DNA of 28,427 nucleotides from a virus. Under the pieces are notes generated by a model. That model was given only the letters and a program-made list of their open reading frames with translations. It did no database searches and had not been told where the DNA came from. The stretch is taken from positions 1-28,427 of the IMG/VR virus record IMGVR_UViG_3300020394_000098, one strand, 5' to 3'. Below are positions 1 through 26,552 of this stretch, piece after piece. Position 1 is the stretch's first letter. Each line of letters starts with the position of its first letter. Made by a program: the position numbers and the translations under genes.

Positions 1-2
1 TA

Positions 3-494
3 TCTATGACTGCATTAATAGGAACACCAATATCTTATAGTGCATGGCATAGAACACATCACAAAACATCAGATACTATTTATGATCCACACAGTCCAAA
101 GTGGATGACTTATTTTGATATTATATTTAAAACACATTCTCATAAGTTTGATGTAAGGAAAGCTGGTAACAGATTAAAAAACAAATGGCAATACTTTCTA
201 ACGAAACATGAAACAGTATTAGTTTATACATTCAATGCTATTTTATTTTTAGCATTACCTATTAATGTGTTTATGATGTGGGTTATTGCAGTTTCTATGT
301 CAAAGTTTTGGATGGTATTTGGTACAGGGATTATGTGCCATGGCTACGATAAAGGTATACCTACAAATATACCTTGGATGTATCCACTTATATTTAATGA
401 TTGTAATCATGAAGATCATCATAGATCACCAAAGTTACAACCATTAAGGTTTGATCCCTGGGTTTGGATTATAAAAAAATTGAGGTGGACATGA
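3..494 (+). CDS. Fatty acid desaturase, 5'-truncated (first of a tandem pair)
   Basis: C-terminal 160 or so residues of a membrane fatty acid desaturase (di-iron family), which introduces a double bond into acyl chains. The reading frame is open to the left edge, so the methionine at base 6 is internal: by comparison with the next gene about 70 residues carrying the first histidine box (HxxxxH) lie outside the window. Visible are the second box HRTHH (residues 15-19 from that methionine), hydrophobic segments in the middle, and a third box HEDHH near the C-terminus. The stop overlaps the start of the second desaturase as ATGA, so the two are translationally coupled. Family assignment is firm; substrate and regiochemistry cannot be read. 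The two proteins are clearly different in sequence, so this is not a recent duplication. Confidence 0.85.
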   Translation, partial: SMTALIGTPISYSAWHRTHHKTSDTIYDPHSPKWMTYFDIIFKTHSHKFDVRKAGNRLKNKWQYFLTKHETVLVYTFNAILFLALPINVFMMWVIAVSMSKFWMVFGTGIMCHGYDKGIPTNIPWMYPLIFNDCNHEDHHRSPKLQPLRFDPWVWIIKKLRWT

Positions 495-1243
495 ATCATG
501 CGAGAGGTGTTCAATTACTTGCACTTATAAATCATATTATTGCTATAGCTGGATGTATTTACTTTCCGGAGTATATTGTCTATGGATTAATAGCCTGGAT
601 GTTTGTAAATATATTTAGCACTAACATAGCTATACATAGATTTATGTGCCATAGAAGTTTTACAACAACACCGATAAAAGAAAAGTTTTTAAAATACATA
701 ACGATCATAGCGGCATTTGGTAGTCCACTATCCTGGACTGCAATGCATAGATATCACCACATGTATAGTGGTAGTGCTAAAGATAATGAATCACCTGATC
801 GTATTGGATACATAAGAGCCTGGCTAACTTTATATGATCCTATTGTAGTGCCTAAAGGTATGGTAAAAGATATTCTAAAAGATAAAGATTATATGTTTAT
901 AACTAAACATTATTGGACTTTATTATTTACCTGGATCATAACTTTATATGCTATAGATCCAATGTTAGGAATCTTTGCATTTTCTTTTCCGGCTGCATGT
1001 GTATACCAGGCGGCTGGTGCATTTGGTGTGATACCGCACATGAAACAGTTTGGCTACATAGTAGTTAAACCTAATAAAGATTGCACTGCAGTCAATTCAC
1101 CATTAACAAGTTTAATTAGCTGGGGTGAAGGATGGCATAACTATCATCATACAAGATCTAAAGATTATAGGCATGGCCATAAATGGTGGGAACTTGATCC
1201 ACCAGCATTTGTAATAGAACATTTATTTTTAACAAAACAATAA
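491..1243 (+). CDS. Fatty acid desaturase (acyl-CoA delta-9 type), complete
   Basis: A 250-residue membrane desaturase with all three histidine boxes: HRFMCH at 49-54, HRYHH at 86-90 and HNYHH at 216-220, separated by two hydrophobic blocks. These ligate the di-iron centre that, with oxygen and an electron donor, desaturates acyl chains. I chose the ATG at 491, not the in-frame TTG at 464, because it has GAGG at good spacing and overlaps the previous stop. Length is short for the family (bacterial members are usually about 300 residues or more) but no catalytic box is missing. The pair lies downstream of the virion genes and upstream of membrane/lysis genes, so late expression is likely. Remodelling of the host membrane during infection is inference. 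Confidence 0.9.
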   Translation: MNHARGVQLLALINHIIAIAGCIYFPEYIVYGLIAWMFVNIFSTNIAIHRFMCHRSFTTTPIKEKFLKYITIIAAFGSPLSWTAMHRYHHMYSGSAKDNESPDRIGYIRAWLTLYDPIVVPKGMVKDILKDKDYMFITKHYWTLLFTWIITLYAIDPMLGIFAFSFPAACVYQAAGAFGVIPHMKQFGYIVVKPNKDCTAVNSPLTSLISWGEGWHNYHHTRSKDYRHGHKWWELDPPAFVIEHLFLTKQ

Positions 1244-1261
1244 CTTAACAGGAGAAATATT

Positions 1262-1396
1262 ATGCCAATGGGTAAAGGTACATATGGTTCAAAAGTAGGT
1301 AGGCCTAAAAAGTCTATGTTAAAAGGTAAGCAAAAAACATTACCGGCTGCATTAAAGAAAAAGATAATAGCCTCTAAAATGAAAAAGAAAAAGTAA
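1262..1396 (+). CDS. Tiny basic lysine-tailed protein
   Basis: A 44-residue protein with no recognised domain. It begins MPMGKGTYG, is rich in Lys and Gly, and ends in a run of lysines. AGGAGA sits at ideal distance from the ATG, and the stop overlaps the next start (taATG), so it is very probably translated. Similar short G-K-rich peptides with lysine tails are, from memory, common in marine phages near late genes. A nucleic-acid or capsid-associated role is a guess from charge only. A second lysine-tailed protein lies at 4288-4434. Confidence 0.7.
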   Translation: MPMGKGTYGSKVGRPKKSMLKGKQKTLPAALKKKIIASKMKKKK

Positions 1397-1626
1397 TGAA
1401 AGATGCTAATGAGTTAAATTTAGAAGTCGAAAAAGTTAAATCGACTATCTTGCTTGTAAAAAAAGATATAGAGATTATAAAAAATAATCACCTCTATCAT
1501 ATCGAGCAAGACATAAGAGAACTAAATAATGCTCTAAATGAAATGAAAAAAGTAACCTGGGCGGTTGCTTTGATAATATTTACTCAATTATTAATAACAG
1601 TAAGAATGTTAATGGTAGGTGGCTAA
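1396..1626 (+). CDS. XhlA-like membrane protein: coiled coil followed by one TM helix
   Basis: 76 residues. Residues 5-52 form a charged heptad-rich segment with a coiled-coil pattern, followed by one membrane helix at about 54-74 and a very short tail. This is the topology and size of haemolysin XhlA-type proteins, which accompany holins in some phages. The start overlaps the previous stop and the gene is followed at once by a multi-TM protein, as expected for a lysis pair. Function is inferred from topology and context only; no catalytic motif is present. Confidence 0.65.
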   Translation: MKDANELNLEVEKVKSTILLVKKDIEIIKNNHLYHIEQDIRELNNALNEMKKVTWAVALIIFTQLLITVRMLMVGG

Positions 1627-2066
1627 TGGGATTTTTAACAGGTGAAGTTGCTAATTTACTTTTGAGTTCGGCTATGGGATCCATAATGCAGATCATGGGA
1701 AGTAAAGCTAATGCACAAGCTGAGATGATGAAACAACTTACTGCTAATCATAAACTAGAAGAGATTAGTAGAGATAAAGTTAGAGATAATACTAATTCAT
1801 TTTTTATGATGACAAGAAGAATTGTTGTTTTAGCGGCAATATTCTCTATCATCATTGTTCCTTCATTAGCACCTATTATTTTTGATGTACCAATTTATAT
1901 ACAAACAGAAGTACAATCAGGTAGTGATTGGTTAATCTTCGATACAAGATCAACAGAATATGTTTGGCAAGAAGTAAATGGGATTCCAATACTAGAATGG
2001 CATAAACATATCATGATCAGTATTGTATCTTTATACCTGGGATCTAGCATAAGTAAAGCAAGATGA
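1626..2066 (+). CDS. Holin-like membrane protein
   Basis: 146 residues. A weakly hydrophobic N-terminus (about 1-27), a polar Lys/Glu-rich segment (30-57), a strong TM helix at about 65-88, a polar loop, and a second TM-like stretch at about 128-142. The arrangement resembles the three-TM holins of marine phages and gene transfer agents, though I cannot confirm homology. It overlaps the XhlA-like gene by one base and the next gene by four, so all three are probably translated together. Holins permeabilise the inner membrane at lysis; this role is inferred from topology and position. Confidence 0.55.
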   Translation: MGFLTGEVANLLLSSAMGSIMQIMGSKANAQAEMMKQLTANHKLEEISRDKVRDNTNSFFMMTRRIVVLAAIFSIIIVPSLAPIIFDVPIYIQTEVQSGSDWLIFDTRSTEYVWQEVNGIPILEWHKHIMISIVSLYLGSSISKAR

Positions 2067-4811: not shown

Positions 4812-5066
4812 ATGTCTATAAAACGAGGATCTGAAACTTTTTCAGGATTTAATAAACCAAAAAGAACACCAGGCCACAAAACTAAAAGTCATGCAGTTTT
4901 GGCTAAGTCAGGTGGTAAAACTAAACTAATTAGATTTGGTCAAAAAGGTGTTACCGGTGATAAAGGTAATACTGCAAGATCAAGATCATTCAAGGCCAGG
5001 CATGGTAAGAATATTGCTAAAGGAAAAATGTCAGCCGCATACTGGGCTAACAAAGTTAAATGGTAA
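4812..5066 (+). CDS. Small basic conserved phage protein between terS and terL
   Basis: 84 residues, strongly basic, with the motifs KTKLIRFGQKG, SFKARHGKNIAKG and a C-terminal AAYWANKVKW. I recognise this family as recurrent in marine podoviruses and cyanophages next to terminase genes, but its function is not known to me. AAAGGAGAG precedes the ATG. It overlaps the large terminase start by seven bases (AAATGGTAA), so expression is coupled with packaging. Charge and neighbours suggest a DNA-packaging or nucleoprotein role; this is inference. Confidence 0.75.
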   Translation: MSIKRGSETFSGFNKPKRTPGHKTKSHAVLAKSGGKTKLIRFGQKGVTGDKGNTARSRSFKARHGKNIAKGKMSAAYWANKVKW

Positions 5067-6727
5067 CTAAAAAATCTAAACTACCAGCTAAACTAAAAGT
5101 CTTTAAAAACTTTTTATACTTAGCCTGGAAACATTTACAACTACCGGATCCAACTCCAATGCAATATGAGATAGCAGACTATCTACAATATGGATCTAAA
5201 AGAATTTGTATCCAGGCATTTAGAGGTGCCGGTAAATCTTGGATCACATCTGCATTTACAGTATGGAATCTATTGATGGATTGTGATCGTAACATCCTGG
5301 TAGTATCTGCTAGTAAAACTAGAGCAGATGATTTCAGTACATTCACACAAAGACTGATCCAGGAACTTCCGATCTGTGAACATTTGAAACCTAATGAAAA
5401 TCAAAGACAATCTAAAGTGTCTTTTGATGTAGGTGGTGCCAGGGCATCTCATGCACCATCTGTAAAATCTATGGGTATAACCGGACAACTTACCGGATCA
5501 AGAGCAGATCTAATTATTGCTGATGATGTTGAATCAGCTAACAACTCTCAAACACAACTGATGAGAGATCGTTTAAGTGAAACAGTAAAAGAATTTGATT
5601 CAATCATAAAACCTGAAGTAGGTAGGATTGTATTCCTGGGAACACCACAAACTGAAATGTCGATCTACAACTCACTAGAGGATCGTGGATTTAAAACTCA
5701 GATATGGCCTTCCAGGTATCCTGAAGAAAAAGCTAAGATCAACTATGGTATTAAACTAGCTCAATCATTGATCAATAATGATCGTAAGTTAGTACCTGGA
5801 GATCCTGTGGATCCAAAAAGATTTGATCATGAAGATCTAATGGAAAGAGAGGCCTCATATGGCCGATCAGGATTTGCATTACAATTCATGCTAGATACAA
5901 CTCTATCAGATGTCGATATGTATCCATTGAAACTAAATGATCTAATGATCATGTCAGGGATTGATTCCTGGGATGAGGCACCAGGTAAAGTACAGTGGGC
6001 TAGTGGGATCGAGCAGATCAAAGCACTAGATCCTGAGTTACCTAATGTAGGCCTCAAAGGTGATTACTATGTAGCACCAATGTATTCCAGTAATGAATAT
6101 TATCCATTTGAAGGATCTGTGATGGCGGTGGATCCAGCCGGTAGAGGTAAGGATAAGACCGCATATGCAATCGTAAAGATGCTTAATGGGATCTTGTATC
6201 TTACTGATGTAGGATCTTTTGATGGCGGCTATGATGAAAAGACATTAGCTGATCTAGCACTGGCTGCTAAATCCCAGGATGTCAATGAGATAGTCGTAGA
6301 GAGTAACTTTGGTGATGGCATGTTTAATAGGCTATTAGAGCCAATTCTGAGCCGATTATACCCTTGTACTTTATCTGAGGTACGATCATCTGTTCAGAAA
6401 GAAAAGCGGATTATAGACACTCTAGAGCCTGTAATGAACCAACATAGGTTGGTCGTAAACCAGGAACTTATATACAGAGATTTTGATCTTGAAAGAGATC
6501 ACCAATTATTTTATCAGATGTCCAGGCTAACTAAGGTTAAAGGATGTCTAAGACATGATGACCAAATAGATGTCTTAGCCATGGCAGTCCAGGTATGGAA
6601 TGAGGCCATAGGAAGAGATGTAGATGAGGCATTGGATAGTGCTAAAGAAGAGAGACTACAAGAGGAACTTGATAGATTCTTAGATCATACGATTGGTCGT
6701 AAGACTAGAGATTCCTGGATCCATTGA
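5060..6727 (+). CDS. terL: Terminase large subunit (T7 gp19-like)
   Basis: 555 residues (T7 gp19: 586). The packaging motor ATPase and nuclease. Walker A FRGAGKSW at about 54-61, Walker B LIIADD at about 151-156, and the C-terminal RNase H-fold nuclease starting at VMAVDPAGRG (about 356) with a later RHDDQIDVLAMA segment. Both activities look intact. ATG at 5060 overlaps the stop of the small basic gene. The gene is unusually dense in GATC (about 34) and CCWGG (about 15) by hand count. It is followed by a phage promoter and structured noncoding DNA, as expected if the genome end lies just downstream, as in T7. Confidence 0.95.
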   Translation: MVTKKSKLPAKLKVFKNFLYLAWKHLQLPDPTPMQYEIADYLQYGSKRICIQAFRGAGKSWITSAFTVWNLLMDCDRNILVVSASKTRADDFSTFTQRLIQELPICEHLKPNENQRQSKVSFDVGGARASHAPSVKSMGITGQLTGSRADLIIADDVESANNSQTQLMRDRLSETVKEFDSIIKPEVGRIVFLGTPQTEMSIYNSLEDRGFKTQIWPSRYPEEKAKINYGIKLAQSLINNDRKLVPGDPVDPKRFDHEDLMEREASYGRSGFALQFMLDTTLSDVDMYPLKLNDLMIMSGIDSWDEAPGKVQWASGIEQIKALDPELPNVGLKGDYYVAPMYSSNEYYPFEGSVMAVDPAGRGKDKTAYAIVKMLNGILYLTDVGSFDGGYDEKTLADLALAAKSQDVNEIVVESNFGDGMFNRLLEPILSRLYPCTLSEVRSSVQKEKRIIDTLEPVMNQHRLVVNQELIYRDFDLERDHQLFYQMSRLTKVKGCLRHDDQIDVLAMAVQVWNEAIGRDVDEALDSAKEERLQEELDRFLDHTIGRKTRDSWIH

Positions 6728-9097: not shown

Positions 9098-10135
9098 ATG
9101 TCAGTAAGAAAAAGAAATAAAGGTTATCAGATTGATATAAGTCATGCTGGTAAGAGATATAGATTCAATATTAATGGTGATATGCATGATGCATTGATCA
9201 CCGAGCAGCAATGTAAAAAAGAACTGGATCAGGGAAGATCCATAGATAAATTTATGAAGGTTCCTGATCATACAGTTGGATACATATTCGACAAGATCAA
9301 AGATGATTACAAAAGTACCAGGGAACTCAATAAGGCCTGTAATGTGATCAGAGATATTGGATCTGATCTAAACATATCTGATCTAGATCAAGATCGTATT
9401 GAGGATATGACCAGGCTATGGAGATCAAGCATGAATAATTCAAATGCTACGATCAACAGGAAACTTTCAGTGATCAGTAAGATCATTTCATTTGCACATA
9501 AAAAACAATACATCAAGTACAAACCACAGATCACCTGGCATAAAGAAGGTGTAGGTAGACTTAGATATTTAGTAGGTGATGAAGAGTATAATCTTTGTAA
9601 GATCCTAAGATCATGCGGCCACAATCAAATGGCTGATATGATCATAGTTGCATGTGATACTGGCCTCAGATTCTCAGAGTTGATCAGAATAGATCGTGAT
9701 CTTGATCTCAAAGATGGATATGGATGTTACAGAACAGATTGCAGCTACTTAACATGTCACTCATCAAAAAATGATACGACCAGGACAATACCATTGACAC
9801 ACAGATCTTACATGATCTTGAAATTACATGGAAAGAAACCATTTGCTAGTATGACTGAGACCAGGAAAAACAGGGAATGGAATCTTGCAAAAGAGATGAT
9901 GGGATTGTCTGATGATCGACAATTCACTTTCCATTGCACCAGGCATACATGTGCAAGTAGGTTAGTACAAAATGGCATACCGCTACAGGTAGTACAAAAA
10001 TGGCTAGGCCATAAGACATTGAATATGACATTGAGATATTCACATTTAGACACCAGGAATTTTATTGAAGGTAAAGAGGTACTAGAACGACAAGGTGACA
10101 ACACCTATAAAAGTGGGTTAGTATCTATACAATAA
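9098..10135 (+). CDS. int: Tyrosine-family site-specific integrase
   Basis: 345 residues. N-terminal SAM-like core-binding region at about 60-150, catalytic domain from about 160. The catalytic set is visible: Arg191 in TGLRFSEL, His279 and Arg282 in HCTRH, His305 in GHK, and nucleophile Tyr314 in LRYSHL. It would recombine attP with a host attB, in pelagiphages usually inside a tRNA gene. The gene is intact. Position just upstream of the phage RNA polymerase is the signature of integrase-carrying pelagiphage podoviruses. CGGAG precedes the ATG. Rich in GATC (about 26) and CCWGG (7) by hand count. Confidence 0.95.
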   Translation: MSVRKRNKGYQIDISHAGKRYRFNINGDMHDALITEQQCKKELDQGRSIDKFMKVPDHTVGYIFDKIKDDYKSTRELNKACNVIRDIGSDLNISDLDQDRIEDMTRLWRSSMNNSNATINRKLSVISKIISFAHKKQYIKYKPQITWHKEGVGRLRYLVGDEEYNLCKILRSCGHNQMADMIIVACDTGLRFSELIRIDRDLDLKDGYGCYRTDCSYLTCHSSKNDTTRTIPLTHRSYMILKLHGKKPFASMTETRKNREWNLAKEMMGLSDDRQFTFHCTRHTCASRLVQNGIPLQVVQKWLGHKTLNMTLRYSHLDTRNFIEGKEVLERQGDNTYKSGLVSIQ

Positions 10136-10248: not shown

Positions 10249-12708
10249 ATGGCGACAACAGAGAGTGACATTGATCAATTATTCAAAAAGCAATTAGAAC
10301 TAGAAGAGAGAATGATCCACAAAGGTTTGGATCGGTACCACAAAACAACCAACAAATCCAAAGAATCAGGTAACGAGAGCCTTACTGTTTATGGTAAGAA
10401 ATTACTTAAAACAAGTATTGATAAATTCGAGGCCGCTATTGATAAAGAGTTCAAACAAAATTTATCTACTAGAGGTGCAACACCATTTGCCAGGAAGTTA
10501 TGTGAGGATATTGATACCAGGACACTAGCAGTCATAGCAACTAAGAAGATCATAGATGGGATATCATTCAAAAGAAAACGAACAGGCCTGGTCATCAAGT
10601 TAGGCGGCAAGGTTGAAGATGAGGCATATTTTAGAGCCTACGAGCAGTTCAATAAAACACTTTTCAAAACAGTAGATAAAGATCTAAACAGTAGATCTAA
10701 TAACTATGAATACAGAAGGTACAAACAATTAAAACAATCACAACGATCAGGATTCACCTGGAATCATTGGACAGTAAATGATAAGACACATGTCGGATCT
10801 ACATTGTTAGAGTTGTTTATATTGTCTACTGGTTTTTGTAGATTAGAAAAAGTCAATGACAATAAAGTGAGGCATAATTTCAGACAGGATACATATGTAA
10901 CACCGACTGATAAGTTATTAGAATGGATTGATAAATGTAACGAGTTTAACGAGTACCTGGATCCGGAATATTTACCGACAGTGATCATACCTAGGCCATG
11001 GAAAAAAGGAATGTCGCAAGGTGCTGGGTACATACATGAAAGGATCAGGCCGATCATGTTAGTTACTGGCCATAACATTACATCACATAGAAACTATCTC
11101 AAAGAATTAGAACTAGCTGATATGCCTGGTGTTATTGATGGGATCAATGCGGTACAAAACACCATGTATAAAATTAATAAGGATGTGTATTGGACTGCAG
11201 AGGCTATTTACCGAGATGATAAATTTAACCAGGGATCTCCAATAGTCACTTCAGCACACATGGATCTACCCAATAAACCACATGATATTGATACAAATCC
11301 TAAAGCATTGAGTAAATGGAAAGCAGAGGCTACGATTATACATACACTTAATGCAAAACTTAGATCCAAAAGATTACAGACTGCAAAAATTTTACATGTA
11401 GCTAAAGAATATATGGACTATGATCAGATAGGATTCCCATGTAATTTAGATTTTAGATCCAGGTTGTATTATGTACCGGCATTTTTGAATCCACAGGGAA
11501 ATGATCTTGCAAAATCTCTATTAAGATTTGCTGAAAAGAAACCTATAGGATCAGAAGGTTACAAATGGCTATGCATACACATAGCAAATTGTTATGGATA
11601 CGATAAGGTTAGTCTAGATGATCGTATAAAATGGGTTGAAGATAATCATGATATGATCCTGGAATCTGCTCATGATCCGATCAATGGTGATAGAACTTGG
11701 ATGAAAGCAGATAAACCATTTCAATTCCTGGCCGCAAGTATCGAATACAATAGAGTAAAACGATATGGCCTGGAATATGAATCAGATCTACCGATCCATA
11801 TTGATGGATCATGTAATGGCTTACAACATTTCAGTGCCATGCTGCGAGATCAGGAAGGCGGCATAGCTACCAACCTAACAGATACAGAAACACCGGAAGA
11901 TATTTATCAGATCGTATGCGATAAAGTTATTGATAAATTGAAACAGAGTGATGATCCATTAGCAAAACTTTGGTTAGCATTTGGTATAGATCGTAAGGCC
12001 ACAAAGAGATCAGTGATGGTGTTACCATATGGCGGCACTAGATATTCATCTGTAGAATTTATTGATGAATACTTAGCAGATCGTATAGAGAAGGGAGATC
12101 ATAATCCATTCGATAATCGTGGTGAGGCCTGTAAATTTTTAGGTTACATGATCTATGATTCAATAGGTGATACTGTGAGTAAAGCGAGAGAGGCAATGGC
12201 CTGGTTACAAAAGATTGCAAAGATGGTAGCCAAGTTAAATTCTGCAGTCGAATGGGAAACACCGCTAGGCTTTCCGATCAGACAAGCATATTACGATACG
12301 ACTGATCTTGTTGTCAGAACTAAAATGATGGGTAGGATCAGAGTTAGATCAACCACAGATAAGATCAATAAAAGAAAACAAGCAAATGGTATCAGTGCAA
12401 ACTTGATCCATAGCCTGGATGCTACATGTTTATATCTATCAATAGATCATGCGAGAGAGAAAGGTGTTACGAGTTTTTCAATGGTGCATGATAGCTATGG
12501 TACTCATGCATGTGATGTAGCGGCCATGGGTGAATCGACTAGAGCCGCATTTATAGAACTTTATGGTAGTAATGATCCACTTGAAATGTTGAGAGATCAA
12601 CTGATCAAGCTGCTACCTGAGAAGGATCATAAAAAAATACCGGATCTACCGAGCAAAGGAGATTTAGATCTGAACAATCTTAAAAAAGCTAAATACTTTT
12701 TCTGCTAA
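10249..12708 (+). CDS. T7-like single-subunit DNA-directed RNA polymerase
   Basis: 819 residues (T7 gp1: 883). Transcribes phage middle and late genes from dedicated promoters. Seen: DFRSRLYYVP before the palm, motif A with catalytic Asp519 in HIDGSCNGLQHF, motif B with Lys586 in ATKRSVMVLPYGG, and motif C with Asp748 in VHDSYGTHA. The C-terminus ends in KYFFC, like the T7 -FAFA foot in being aromatic. The motif A to B distance is about 27 residues shorter than in T7. GAGGTG precedes the ATG. A 113-base spacer separates it from integrase, with no phage promoter, consistent with transcription by host polymerase from 8567. Confidence 0.97.
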   Translation: MATTESDIDQLFKKQLELEERMIHKGLDRYHKTTNKSKESGNESLTVYGKKLLKTSIDKFEAAIDKEFKQNLSTRGATPFARKLCEDIDTRTLAVIATKKIIDGISFKRKRTGLVIKLGGKVEDEAYFRAYEQFNKTLFKTVDKDLNSRSNNYEYRRYKQLKQSQRSGFTWNHWTVNDKTHVGSTLLELFILSTGFCRLEKVNDNKVRHNFRQDTYVTPTDKLLEWIDKCNEFNEYLDPEYLPTVIIPRPWKKGMSQGAGYIHERIRPIMLVTGHNITSHRNYLKELELADMPGVIDGINAVQNTMYKINKDVYWTAEAIYRDDKFNQGSPIVTSAHMDLPNKPHDIDTNPKALSKWKAEATIIHTLNAKLRSKRLQTAKILHVAKEYMDYDQIGFPCNLDFRSRLYYVPAFLNPQGNDLAKSLLRFAEKKPIGSEGYKWLCIHIANCYGYDKVSLDDRIKWVEDNHDMILESAHDPINGDRTWMKADKPFQFLAASIEYNRVKRYGLEYESDLPIHIDGSCNGLQHFSAMLRDQEGGIATNLTDTETPEDIYQIVCDKVIDKLKQSDDPLAKLWLAFGIDRKATKRSVMVLPYGGTRYSSVEFIDEYLADRIEKGDHNPFDNRGEACKFLGYMIYDSIGDTVSKAREAMAWLQKIAKMVAKLNSAVEWETPLGFPIRQAYYDTTDLVVRTKMMGRIRVRSTTDKINKRKQANGISANLIHSLDATCLYLSIDHAREKGVTSFSMVHDSYGTHACDVAAMGESTRAAFIELYGSNDPLEMLRDQLIKLLPEKDHKKIPDLPSKGDLDLNNLKKAKYFFC

Positions 12709-23636: not shown

Positions 23637-26077
23637 TGTCTGTAATATCCTCATCCATTCCTAATCTGATCAATGGAATATCTGAACAGAATCCAACACA
23701 AAGAAATCTCAATCAAGCAGAGGCACAAGTCAATGCTCAATCATCAATCGTAAAAGGTTTACAAAAAAGGCCACCATTAGAGTGGGTTGATAATCTTTTA
23801 CCTTCACAAGTATTTTCTACTAACACCGCTATCCATCCTTATGTCAGGGATGATTCAAACAAATTTTTTATAACTGCTTTTAATGGCGGCATGAAAGTCT
23901 TTGATATTGATGGCACTGAAAAAACTGTGACTATAAGTAGTGGTGGAAGTTATTTAACATCTACAGATCCTAAAAATAATTTTAAATTTGTAAGTGTTGC
24001 TGATACAACTTTTGTTTTAAATACTACCAAAGTTCCGGCTATGACTGGCACAACTACTGCAGCTAAAGTTGAAGAGGCATTAGTTTATGTAAAACAATCT
24101 AACTATGGTAGAACTTATAGCATTACACTAACTCATCCAAATATGAATGGCGGTAATCCTTTGACAAGTTCATTTGCTATGCCGAATGGTGACAATGTGG
24201 CAACACAAGGATTCCTAAGAGATACTGCAAAAATAGCAAACATCTTAATTACAGGATCAGGTGGATCTCCAGGCACACATTCCGGAACCGCACTAAACAA
24301 TGCAGCTATATCTAATCATTTTACAATCACACAATACAATTCTGTAATACATATTAAACCTACAGATAACAATGCTGCATTTACAATATCAACATCTGAT
24401 GGTGCTGGTGATAGTGCTATGTATACGATCAGAGATTCAGTTAATGATTTTACTGATCTACCATATTATGCACCTACAGGTGCCATAGTAAAAATTACTG
24501 GTGATGAAGGTTTAACAACAACTGATTATTTTGTTAAGTATGAAGGAGTTGGTGTATGGACAGAGTGTGCCGCACCTGGCATACAAACGACTATAGATCC
24601 TACAACTATGCCGCACAAATTAGTTAGAGCAACTAACAATACATTTACATTCCAACAATGTTCCTGGGATATAAGAAATTGTGGTGATGATAATACTAAT
24701 CCTGTACCTTCATTTATTGGATTCAATGTTAATAATATTACTTTTCATAAAAATAGATTATGTCTACTGGCTGATGAAAATATAATCATGAGTGAGGCTG
24801 GTAGTTATTTTAATTTCTTTAGTCAAACAGTTGCAGCAGTATTAGATACAGATACGATAGATCTTGCAGCTACATCAAATGAAGTATCAGTGTTAAAACA
24901 TGCAATACCATTTAATGAAGAATTAATATTATTTAGTGATCTAGCACAATTTAAAGTTGATAGCGGTACTAATGCACTATCACCAGCAGATGCGGCTATC
25001 ACATTAACAACAAGATTTGAAAACAAACCTAGTGTAACACCAGTAGGTGCCGGTAATTATTTATACTTCGCACAATCCAGGGGAGATAAAGTTTCACTGA
25101 GAGAATATTATGTGCAGCCGGATACTACTAACTATGATTCTATTGATGTGACTGTAGGTGTACCAAGTCTAATTAGTAGTAATTGTTATTCAGTTATAAG
25201 TAATACTATTGAAAATACATTACTAGCATTAGTAGATGATGGTGCTGATAATAACAATGCACCATACAATGCTAATTCAAATGTTAATCCAACACTTGCT
25301 AACAGAGTATACATTTATAAATACTTTTGGAATGGTAATGAAAAAGTACAATCGGCCTGGTCATATTGGGAGTTTCCAAATGTTCAGATCATAGGTGCAT
25401 TTTCAAATGAATCTAATGTCTACATTATTGCTAATGAACGACAACAGGCTAATTTATATAAAATAGATCTTAGAAATTTAGAAGATTCAAATTTGAATAT
25501 GAATATATATCTAGATCAAAGATGTAAATTAAATGGATCATATGATGCAGCTACAGATCTTACAACATTTACTACACCATACACAGTCAAAACTGGATTA
25601 CAATGTGTTAATGCTGCAACAGGATCTGATGTCAGTATCAATTCACAATCAGGAACTACAGTTACTGTCAAAGGTAATGTAGCAAGTGCATATTTTGGAT
25701 TTGAGTTTACAAGTCTTTACACTTTATCTACTCAGTATTTAAGAGAACCTGGAAAGACTGGTGGCCTGGCCGCTATAACTTCAGGAAGATTACAAGTAAG
25801 GACTATGAGTTTTGATTATAGTAATACTGGATTTTTCCAGGTAGTTGTAGATCATGATAATAGATCAGCTAAGACTTATAGTTTTAATGGTTACATTATT
25901 GATAGTTCAACTGCTTTGATTGATCAACCAGTATTAGATACCGGTACATTTAGAGTACCTGTCCAGGCACAAAATACTCAACATTCTGTAACTATTAAAT
26001 CATCTTCTTACTTACCAGCAAATATTGTATCTGCTGAGATGGAAGGATTTTATTTCAGGAGATCAAGTCGTGCATAG
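23636..26077 (+). CDS. Tail tubular protein B, nozzle (T7 gp12-like)
   Basis: 813 residues (T7: 794). Hexameric beta-propeller nozzle of the short tail. Opening SSIPNLINGISEQNPTQRNLNQAEAQVNA is characteristic, as are the FHKNRLCLLADENIIMSEAGSYFNFF and LREYYVQPDT segments and the C-terminal AEMEGFYFRRSSRA. Complete. GATC and CCWGG are also above expectation here (about 18 and 6 by hand count) but far less than in terL. Confidence 0.96.
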   Translation: MSVISSSIPNLINGISEQNPTQRNLNQAEAQVNAQSSIVKGLQKRPPLEWVDNLLPSQVFSTNTAIHPYVRDDSNKFFITAFNGGMKVFDIDGTEKTVTISSGGSYLTSTDPKNNFKFVSVADTTFVLNTTKVPAMTGTTTAAKVEEALVYVKQSNYGRTYSITLTHPNMNGGNPLTSSFAMPNGDNVATQGFLRDTAKIANILITGSGGSPGTHSGTALNNAAISNHFTITQYNSVIHIKPTDNNAAFTISTSDGAGDSAMYTIRDSVNDFTDLPYYAPTGAIVKITGDEGLTTTDYFVKYEGVGVWTECAAPGIQTTIDPTTMPHKLVRATNNTFTFQQCSWDIRNCGDDNTNPVPSFIGFNVNNITFHKNRLCLLADENIIMSEAGSYFNFFSQTVAAVLDTDTIDLAATSNEVSVLKHAIPFNEELILFSDLAQFKVDSGTNALSPADAAITLTTRFENKPSVTPVGAGNYLYFAQSRGDKVSLREYYVQPDTTNYDSIDVTVGVPSLISSNCYSVISNTIENTLLALVDDGADNNNAPYNANSNVNPTLANRVYIYKYFWNGNEKVQSAWSYWEFPNVQIIGAFSNESNVYIIANERQQANLYKIDLRNLEDSNLNMNIYLDQRCKLNGSYDAATDLTTFTTPYTVKTGLQCVNAATGSDVSINSQSGTTVTVKGNVASAYFGFEFTSLYTLSTQYLREPGKTGGLAAITSGRLQVRTMSFDYSNTGFFQVVVDHDNRSAKTYSFNGYIIDSSTALIDQPVLDTGTFRVPVQAQNTQHSVTIKSSSYLPANIVSAEMEGFYFRRSSRA

Positions 26078-26552
26078 AGTACCTACAGTTAGACCAGCTC
26101 AAATTACAGATGCAGTACATCTAGCTAAAGATCTGAAACCATTAGATCAATTAGAGATCAAGTATTCACATGATGATACACCGCTTGATGCATTGTTAAG
26201 CTGCTTTCATCAACAGGATGCAGAGAACTACACAATCGTAGATCATAATGGTGTTGTCTATGGAATGTTTGGTGTTAATTCAGATCCTGAACTAGAAGGC
26301 TATGGTGTTATATGGTTATTATCATCAGCTAAATTACAAAAGTTTCCAGTATCATTTTTTAAAGAATCTATTAAATGGATAAAAAGATTACATAAAAATT
26401 ATGATCACATTTATAACTTTGTTTATGAAAAAAATTGGCAATCATTGAAGTGGTTGCAGCTATGTGGATTCAAACCTATAGCAACAAAGAACATAGGAAA
26501 ATACAATAAACCATTTATTTTAATCATGAGGTCAAAAGAACAAGATGTGTGA
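26070..26552 (+). CDS. T7 gp13-like protein (GNAT-fold, virion assembly)
   Basis: 160 residues. The opening VRPAQITDAVHLAKDL, the central VVYGMFGV...GVIWLLSS and the later YNFVYEKNWQSLKWLQLCGFKP match the GNAT-like fold of T7 gp13, needed for assembly of the internal core. I start at GTG 26070, which has AGGAGA at good spacing; the frame is open to 26025 but lacks a better start. Overlaps the nozzle gene by eight bases and the next gene by eight. Acetyltransferase activity is not implied. Confidence 0.82.
   Translation: MHRVPTVRPAQITDAVHLAKDLKPLDQLEIKYSHDDTPLDALLSCFHQQDAENYTIVDHNGVVYGMFGVNSDPELEGYGVIWLLSSAKLQKFPVSFFKESIKWIKRLHKNYDHIYNFVYEKNWQSLKWLQLCGFKPIATKNIGKYNKPFILIMRSKEQDV

Follow-up and report, generated by a model that had tools for sequence, protein, structure and literature searches.

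Two overlapping desaturase genes in a T7-like phage

The window, that is, the whole stretch of DNA analysed, is the complete 28,427-bp IMG/VR record IMGVR_UViG_3300020394_000098. At its left end lie two consecutive genes, A and B, whose products carry the histidine boxes of fatty acid desaturases (Table 1). The first base of the record falls inside gene A, and it is because the record begins there that neither the start of A nor the gene preceding it, named G, lies within the window. The missing 5′ part of A, which the original prediction had proposed to recover, was found in an overlapping contig, IMGVR_UViG_3300030451_001894 (L004), which is 100% identical to window positions 1–1592 and reaches 1,045 bases further left. 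In that contig A is intact, box 1 included, and is preceded by the open reading frame for G, which follows the end of a tail-associated protein. The possibility that A is a broken remnant is ruled out by this complete copy together with the intact A genes found in relatives.

Table 1. Features of the desaturase locus and neighbouring genes (window positions unless L004 is indicated)
Feature	Position	Strand	Remarks
G	L004: 348-845		165 aa; outside the window; GNAT fold by predicted structure
Desaturase A, complete copy	L004: 847-1539		GTG start; 230 aa; box 1 HRWSAH
Desaturase A, part in window	3..494	+	Open at 5′ end; start cut off by contig end
A, box 2 (HRTHH)	48-62
A, extra conserved His	339-341
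A, box 3 (HEDHH)	408-422
A stop (TGA)/B start (ATG) overlap	491..494	+	ATGA, 4 nt; suggests translational coupling
Desaturase B	491..1243	+	Complete, 250 aa; ATG at 491, stop ends at 1243
B, box HRFMCH	635-652
B, box HRYHH	746-760
B, extra conserved His	1037-1039
B, box HNYHH	1136-1150
Small basic gene	1262..1396	+	44 aa; directly after the cassette, outside it; DNA matches Pelagibacter phages only
Two small genes with hydrophobic segments	1396..2066	+	Follow the cassette; flank the accessory region
Terminase large subunit	5060..6727	+	82% identical to Votkovvirus S28C10
Single-subunit RNA polymerase	10249..12708	+	56% identical to AP013540 RNA polymerase

The description of the carrier as a T7-like phage was borne out. 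Its RNA polymerase, DNA polymerase, terminase and structural genes are mostly 50–82% identical to those of Votkovvirus S28C10 (Autographiviridae), and its RNA polymerase, terminase, DNA polymerase, connector, capsid and tail proteins align in order with those of AP013540, a phage that does not carry the pair. The terminase served both for classifying the phage and for choosing relatives to compare. As judged from its genes, the phage is thus assigned to the Autographiviridae as a Votkovvirus-like, T7-type member. The second of the two small genes with hydrophobic segments is common to carriers of the pair and to AP013540. When carriers were searched for an RNA polymerase, only 2 of 26 matched, a low figure largely explained by fragmentary records and by carriers of other phage types.

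An integrase gene was also observed (window 9098-10135). It shares 50% identity with the AP013540 integrase, which adjoins a tRNA gene; a tRNA search of the window returned none, and the integrase attachment site was not located there. The gene at window 26070-26552, between tail and internal virion genes, is 78% identical to a putative acetyltransferase of AP013540.

When positions 1–2000 of the window were compared with annotated phages at the DNA level, only five Pelagibacter phages matched, at the small gene after B. Pelagibacter phages accounted for 35 of the 108 records matching the first 8 kb, and the best named isolates were likewise Pelagibacter phages; a SAR11 host is therefore likely. 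None of the annotated phage isolates carries both A and B. Apart from Mosig, the only annotated phage matches came from Acinetobacter phage MD-2021a (L192, CAKLQH020000002.1); its record was dropped as phage evidence, since its desaturase gene is surrounded by bacterial chromosomal genes; these include btuB and baeSR, and the record looks like a bacterial contig filed as phage.

A and B resemble SCD/DesC-type membrane desaturases

B matched the Pfam family FA_desaturase (PF00487) with 50.9 bits (2.4e-13; curated cut-off 29.7), and a B profile matched stearoyl-CoA desaturases of the PDB at 2e-14. Its GEGWHNYHH stretch aligns with the GEGFHNYHH of acyl-CoA desaturases. A scored lower against PF00487, with 17.0 bits for the part in the window and 17.3 bits for the complete protein, both under the cut-off; many of its orthologues in other records exceed it. 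An AlphaFold2 model of complete A (pLDDT 91.6, pTM 0.89) was matched by VIA to SCD1 (4ymk) over 227 of its 230 residues (Z 18.1, rmsd 3.4), the other matches, to AlkB (Z 8.3) and Scs7p (Z 4.9), being far below. A Foldseek search with the same model returned nothing significant (best E 1.5).

Both proteins carry the HX4H/HX2HH/HX2HH set of boxes. The three boxes of A are invariant in 51 aligned relatives, and the alignment of B comprised 15. Throughout A, B and the phage paralogues C, D and E the box histidines are invariant, as is one additional histidine; the context of the third box is altered in A. By predicted fold in the case of A, and by sequence in that of B, the two are assigned to the SCD/DesC-type membrane di-iron desaturases. 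Folds and boxes place both nearest to acyl-CoA desaturase, A being divergent and its acyl substrate putative.

The pair is conserved, often with a GNAT-fold partner

A census of B yielded 80 IMG/VR contigs, partly redundant between samples, with ∼54 distinct A and ∼53 distinct B sequences. The order G-A-B was found in 44 of them, G-A-B-C in eight and G-A-E-B in one, so that G followed by A and B is present in 53 contigs, some with a third desaturase. A further 14 have A-B with C2 and/or D, and three have E-B; the rest show A-B (seven, six of them cut on the left and one cut inside B) or a partial B alone (three, cut). A desaturase gene lies directly upstream of B in all 77 contigs that have sequence there. 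In 64 contigs A and B overlap by exactly 4 nt, and G mostly lies 0–1 nt from A. A search of viral contigs with a profile of A gave 363 related stretches, the best 80 of which were retrieved. The tandem arrangement read from the histidine boxes thus stands, with a complete A recovered and the adjacency recurring in dozens of contigs.

In one T4-like contig (IMGVR_UViG_3300048023_000188; L038/L137), a fifth, separate desaturase was observed ∼24 kb from the A-B-C2-D set (10672-11283, minus strand; 427-aa open frame; PF00487 E 1e-30).

Sequence searches with G against Pfam, the PDB and PHROGs gave scattered, weak matches and none that was meaningful. Its structural model (pLDDT 94) has a GNAT fold according to Foldseek (8.3e-6) and VIA (Z 11.2 to 3exn, rmsd 3.4 over 143 residues). 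The canonical R/Q-x-x-G-x-G/A CoA-binding loop of GNAT proteins is absent, and a conserved NNSKAW-like stretch is found in its place. G is thus modelled as a GNAT-fold protein with a putative acyltransferase role; since it lacks the canonical loop, acyltransferase activity is not claimed. A profile of G detected 59 loci: A lies behind G in 54, the contig end cuts two, and three have no A. In L170, L184 and L185, G is present with neither A nor B behind it, which provides a useful contrast for G alone. The 205-aa neighbours in L075 and L145, GNAT-like by eye, have no Pfam match and were set aside.

A and B belong to separate virus-only clades under purifying selection

A tree was built with a small sample of bacterial desaturases. 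The close relatives of A formed one virus-only clade in it (support 100/99) and those of B another (94/90), while D, E and two types of C each fell in clades of their own. The A clade consists of strong matches to the A profile; three distant, weak matches fall elsewhere in the tree. A and B are only ∼21% identical, which agrees with the original prediction that the two proteins differ clearly in sequence and which, together with the separate clades, rules out a recent tandem duplication.

Pairwise dN/dS values were 0.08–0.36 for A and 0.04–0.15 for B, indicating purifying selection. Given these values (0.04–0.36 overall) and the adjacency of A and B in dozens of contigs, a chance association is excluded. 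L007 and L035 have near-identical A genes (dS 0.07) and strongly diverged B genes (dS 1.47), a pattern that points to recombination between the coupled genes, the pair being nonetheless kept.

A recent acquisition from a host was rejected as well: no close bacterial A was found in 84,980 genomes, and plasmid matches to B reach only 29% identity. The search of those genomes, which involved no direct comparison with SAR11, yielded just 13 bacterial A-like loci, all distant (27–37% identity). A bacterial case of tandem desaturases was seen on a Streptomyces plasmid (L190, NZ_CP033582.1): a pair of acyl-CoA desaturase genes in head-to-tail overlap, with the gene for an acyl carrier protein behind them.

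The cassette lies behind tail fibres on different phage backbones

In T7-like carriers the gene order is tail fibre, second tail-associated gene, G, A, B, small genes and terminase. The same G-A-B block is found behind tail fibres in contigs whose genes are otherwise different, among them contigs that have a RecE-like exonuclease alongside an SSB-like gene, and others that have different virion proteins; between such backbones A is mostly 78–95% identical. By Mantel test, the identities of A and B go together (r 0.63, p 0.001); those of A do not follow the terminase (r 0.07, 14 contigs), whereas B and G follow it weakly (r 0.44). The pair is carried by three of 15 comparable T7-like relatives, the latter being terminase relatives that either have a recognisable tail fibre in view or carry the pair; the cassette is therefore accessory. 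The non-carrier AP013540 has a different gene set at the same site: Votkovvirus S28C10, with a backbone like that of the window, holds a SPRY-domain gene and a hypothetical gene there. Gene order and sequence comparison thus indicate that G-A-B is an accessory, mobile cassette located at the tail-fibre end on unrelated phage backbones.

The T4-like carriers, whose nearest pelagimyophages are Mosig and HTVC008M, carry one or two desaturases in addition to A-B; their A-B-C2-D set lies between a uvsW-side gene and gp55, away from the tail fibres and with no G, so that a link to recognition does not hold for every carrier. In addition, the region behind the tail fibres is variable in these phages, and position alone may reflect a permissive place. 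More distant members of the family are found in phages rich in radical-SAM-like genes. Genes for aspartyl/asparaginyl beta-hydroxylases (PF05118) were seen beside or near desaturase genes in larger phages (L143, L145, L148, L092, L093 and Mosig, L107).

Possible function of the cassette

The maintenance of the pair across many phages makes a joint function likelier than a single chance acquisition, and supports the two genes acting together. In this respect the original interpretation holds, as two intact, coupled enzymes are kept together; nothing was found that links the pair to the membrane-fluidity or cold-host purpose that it suggested, and the position of the accessory cassette at the tail-fibre end is just as suggestive of a role in the envelope or in host recognition.

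The reading that we favour, at roughly even odds (about 0.5), is that the desaturases of the G-A-B cassette remodel the envelope of the infected cell through successive oxidations of acyl chains, in connection with host recognition or exit. A and B would be made during infection, late as judged by gene position, and would sit in the host inner membrane, using O2 and electrons from a host donor; no Fer2 ferredoxin that might serve as a phage-borne donor was detected in 23 carrier records, mostly fragments. The acyl chains of host lipids would be oxidised by the two in succession: B would act as a delta-9-type desaturase, while A, the divergent second enzyme, would desaturate or hydroxylate either another position or the product of B; the altered context of the third box in A suggests another position, chain or product. 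The changed chains would then alter the envelope, which might, for instance, hold back re-adsorption or competing phages or make lysis easier. The linkage to tail fibres favours a change of the envelope connected with recognition, exclusion or exit. The weakest step of this scheme is the role of G, which may be the transfer of an acyl or acetyl group within the pathway. Host-recognition islands of pelagimyophages hold surface-modifying genes, for which avoidance of coinfection has been proposed as a possible role (PMC7029224). In a bolder version, which we regard as improbable, G-A-B would be an acyl-modification pathway exchanged along with tail fibres, in which the two desaturases, working in series, produce an unusual acyl chain and G, as a non-canonical GNAT-fold enzyme, puts it on a host surface molecule or a virion protein and so changes recognition; if true, this would be the analogue, based on lipid, of O-antigen conversion.

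The first alternative, possible though on the unlikely side, is that these are membrane-fluidity auxiliary genes raising unsaturation for the benefit of host membranes, phage membrane proteins or lysis, with no tie to recognition. This is the standard reading of viral desaturases, applied to those of cyanophages and polar-brine phages (PMC7300359, PMC7678222), and it fits both the delta-9 type of B and the T4-like carriers that keep the set away from the tail fibres; however, it leaves unexplained why two very different desaturases are retained jointly, as well as the regular GNAT-fold partner and the tail-fibre position in other carriers.

An improbable alternative, by analogy with bacterial pathways, is that one special carrier-bound acyl chain is modified serially by two to four desaturases, G attaching the product to a virion protein or a surface molecule. 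Polyyne pathways, which require all three of their desaturases (PMC8406139), the tandem desaturases beside a carrier protein in Streptomyces and the very presence here of two to four distinct tandem desaturases with a GNAT-fold protein would fit such a scheme. Against it, the clustering of neighbouring genes brought to light no recognisable acyl ligase, carrier protein, thioesterase or rubredoxin, and the CoA-binding loop of G is not canonical. Lastly, the desaturase superfamily contains non-acyl enzymes, and A is divergent, under the Pfam cut-off in this phage and altered around its third box, with related genes in larger phages and Mosig adjoining Asp_Arg_Hydrox genes, but action of one or both enzymes on a non-lipid substrate, as hydroxylase- or ketolase-like proteins, is very unlikely given the box set, the clear lead of SCD1 among the fold matches of A and the acyl-CoA desaturase-like GEGWHNYHH of B.

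Relation to known systems

The cyanophage lipid desaturases (vFAD) that Roitman et al. are said to have described in 2018 (ISME J 12:343; cited in PMC11480375) are reportedly delta-9 enzymes, with one vFAD gene per genome, on cyanomyophage-type contigs. Compared by description only, they resemble the present case in being SCD/DesC-type desaturases encoded by marine phages, and differ from it in that a coupled, distinct pair with a GNAT-fold partner occurs here, in T7-like and other phages.

Viral desaturases, also in multiple copies, have already been described (PMC7300359, PMC10405475, PMC11480375), including those of pelagimyophages (PMC7029224, PMC11480375). Two Arctic cryopeg-brine phages have five desaturase genes each, under purifying selection and in clades with no microbial members (PMC7300359, PMC10405475), features shared with the genes studied here; unlike the T7-like phage, these have genomes of 222–230 kb and predicted Pseudomonas hosts, and neither a GNAT-fold partner nor a tail-fibre linkage is reported for them (PMC7300359, PMC10405475). 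The FA_desaturase of Pelagibacter phage Mosig EXVC030M (QOI69044) also belongs to a SAR11 phage, is 28–30% identical to A and B and lies in a neighbourhood of hydroxylase and tail fibre genes. However, it is a single desaturase outside the A and B clades, and in Mosig a 111-bp ORF is all that lies in the slot between the uvsW-side gene and gp55, with no A-B-C-D. Bacterial polyyne triads (e.g. pgnE/F/H, PMC8406139) likewise encode several different desaturases together, which act jointly; they need an acyl-AMP ligase, a carrier protein, a thioesterase and usually a rubredoxin (PMC8406139), whereas none of these accessory genes was recognised beside the phage cassette. The literature searched, the coverage of which was incomplete, contained no description of a conserved, tail-fibre-linked G-A-B cassette across phage groups and no paper on tandem desaturases in podoviruses.

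When phages carry genes for lipid modification, the usual report is of a single auxiliary metabolic gene that is taken to aid membrane fluidity. The conservation in unrelated phages with probable SAR11 hosts of a pair of distinct desaturases (up to four), often with a GNAT-fold gene, argues for a defined biochemical pathway, and the position of the cassette argues for a link to host recognition. Together they provide a testable hypothesis, namely that phages may remodel the envelope of some of the ocean's most abundant cells.
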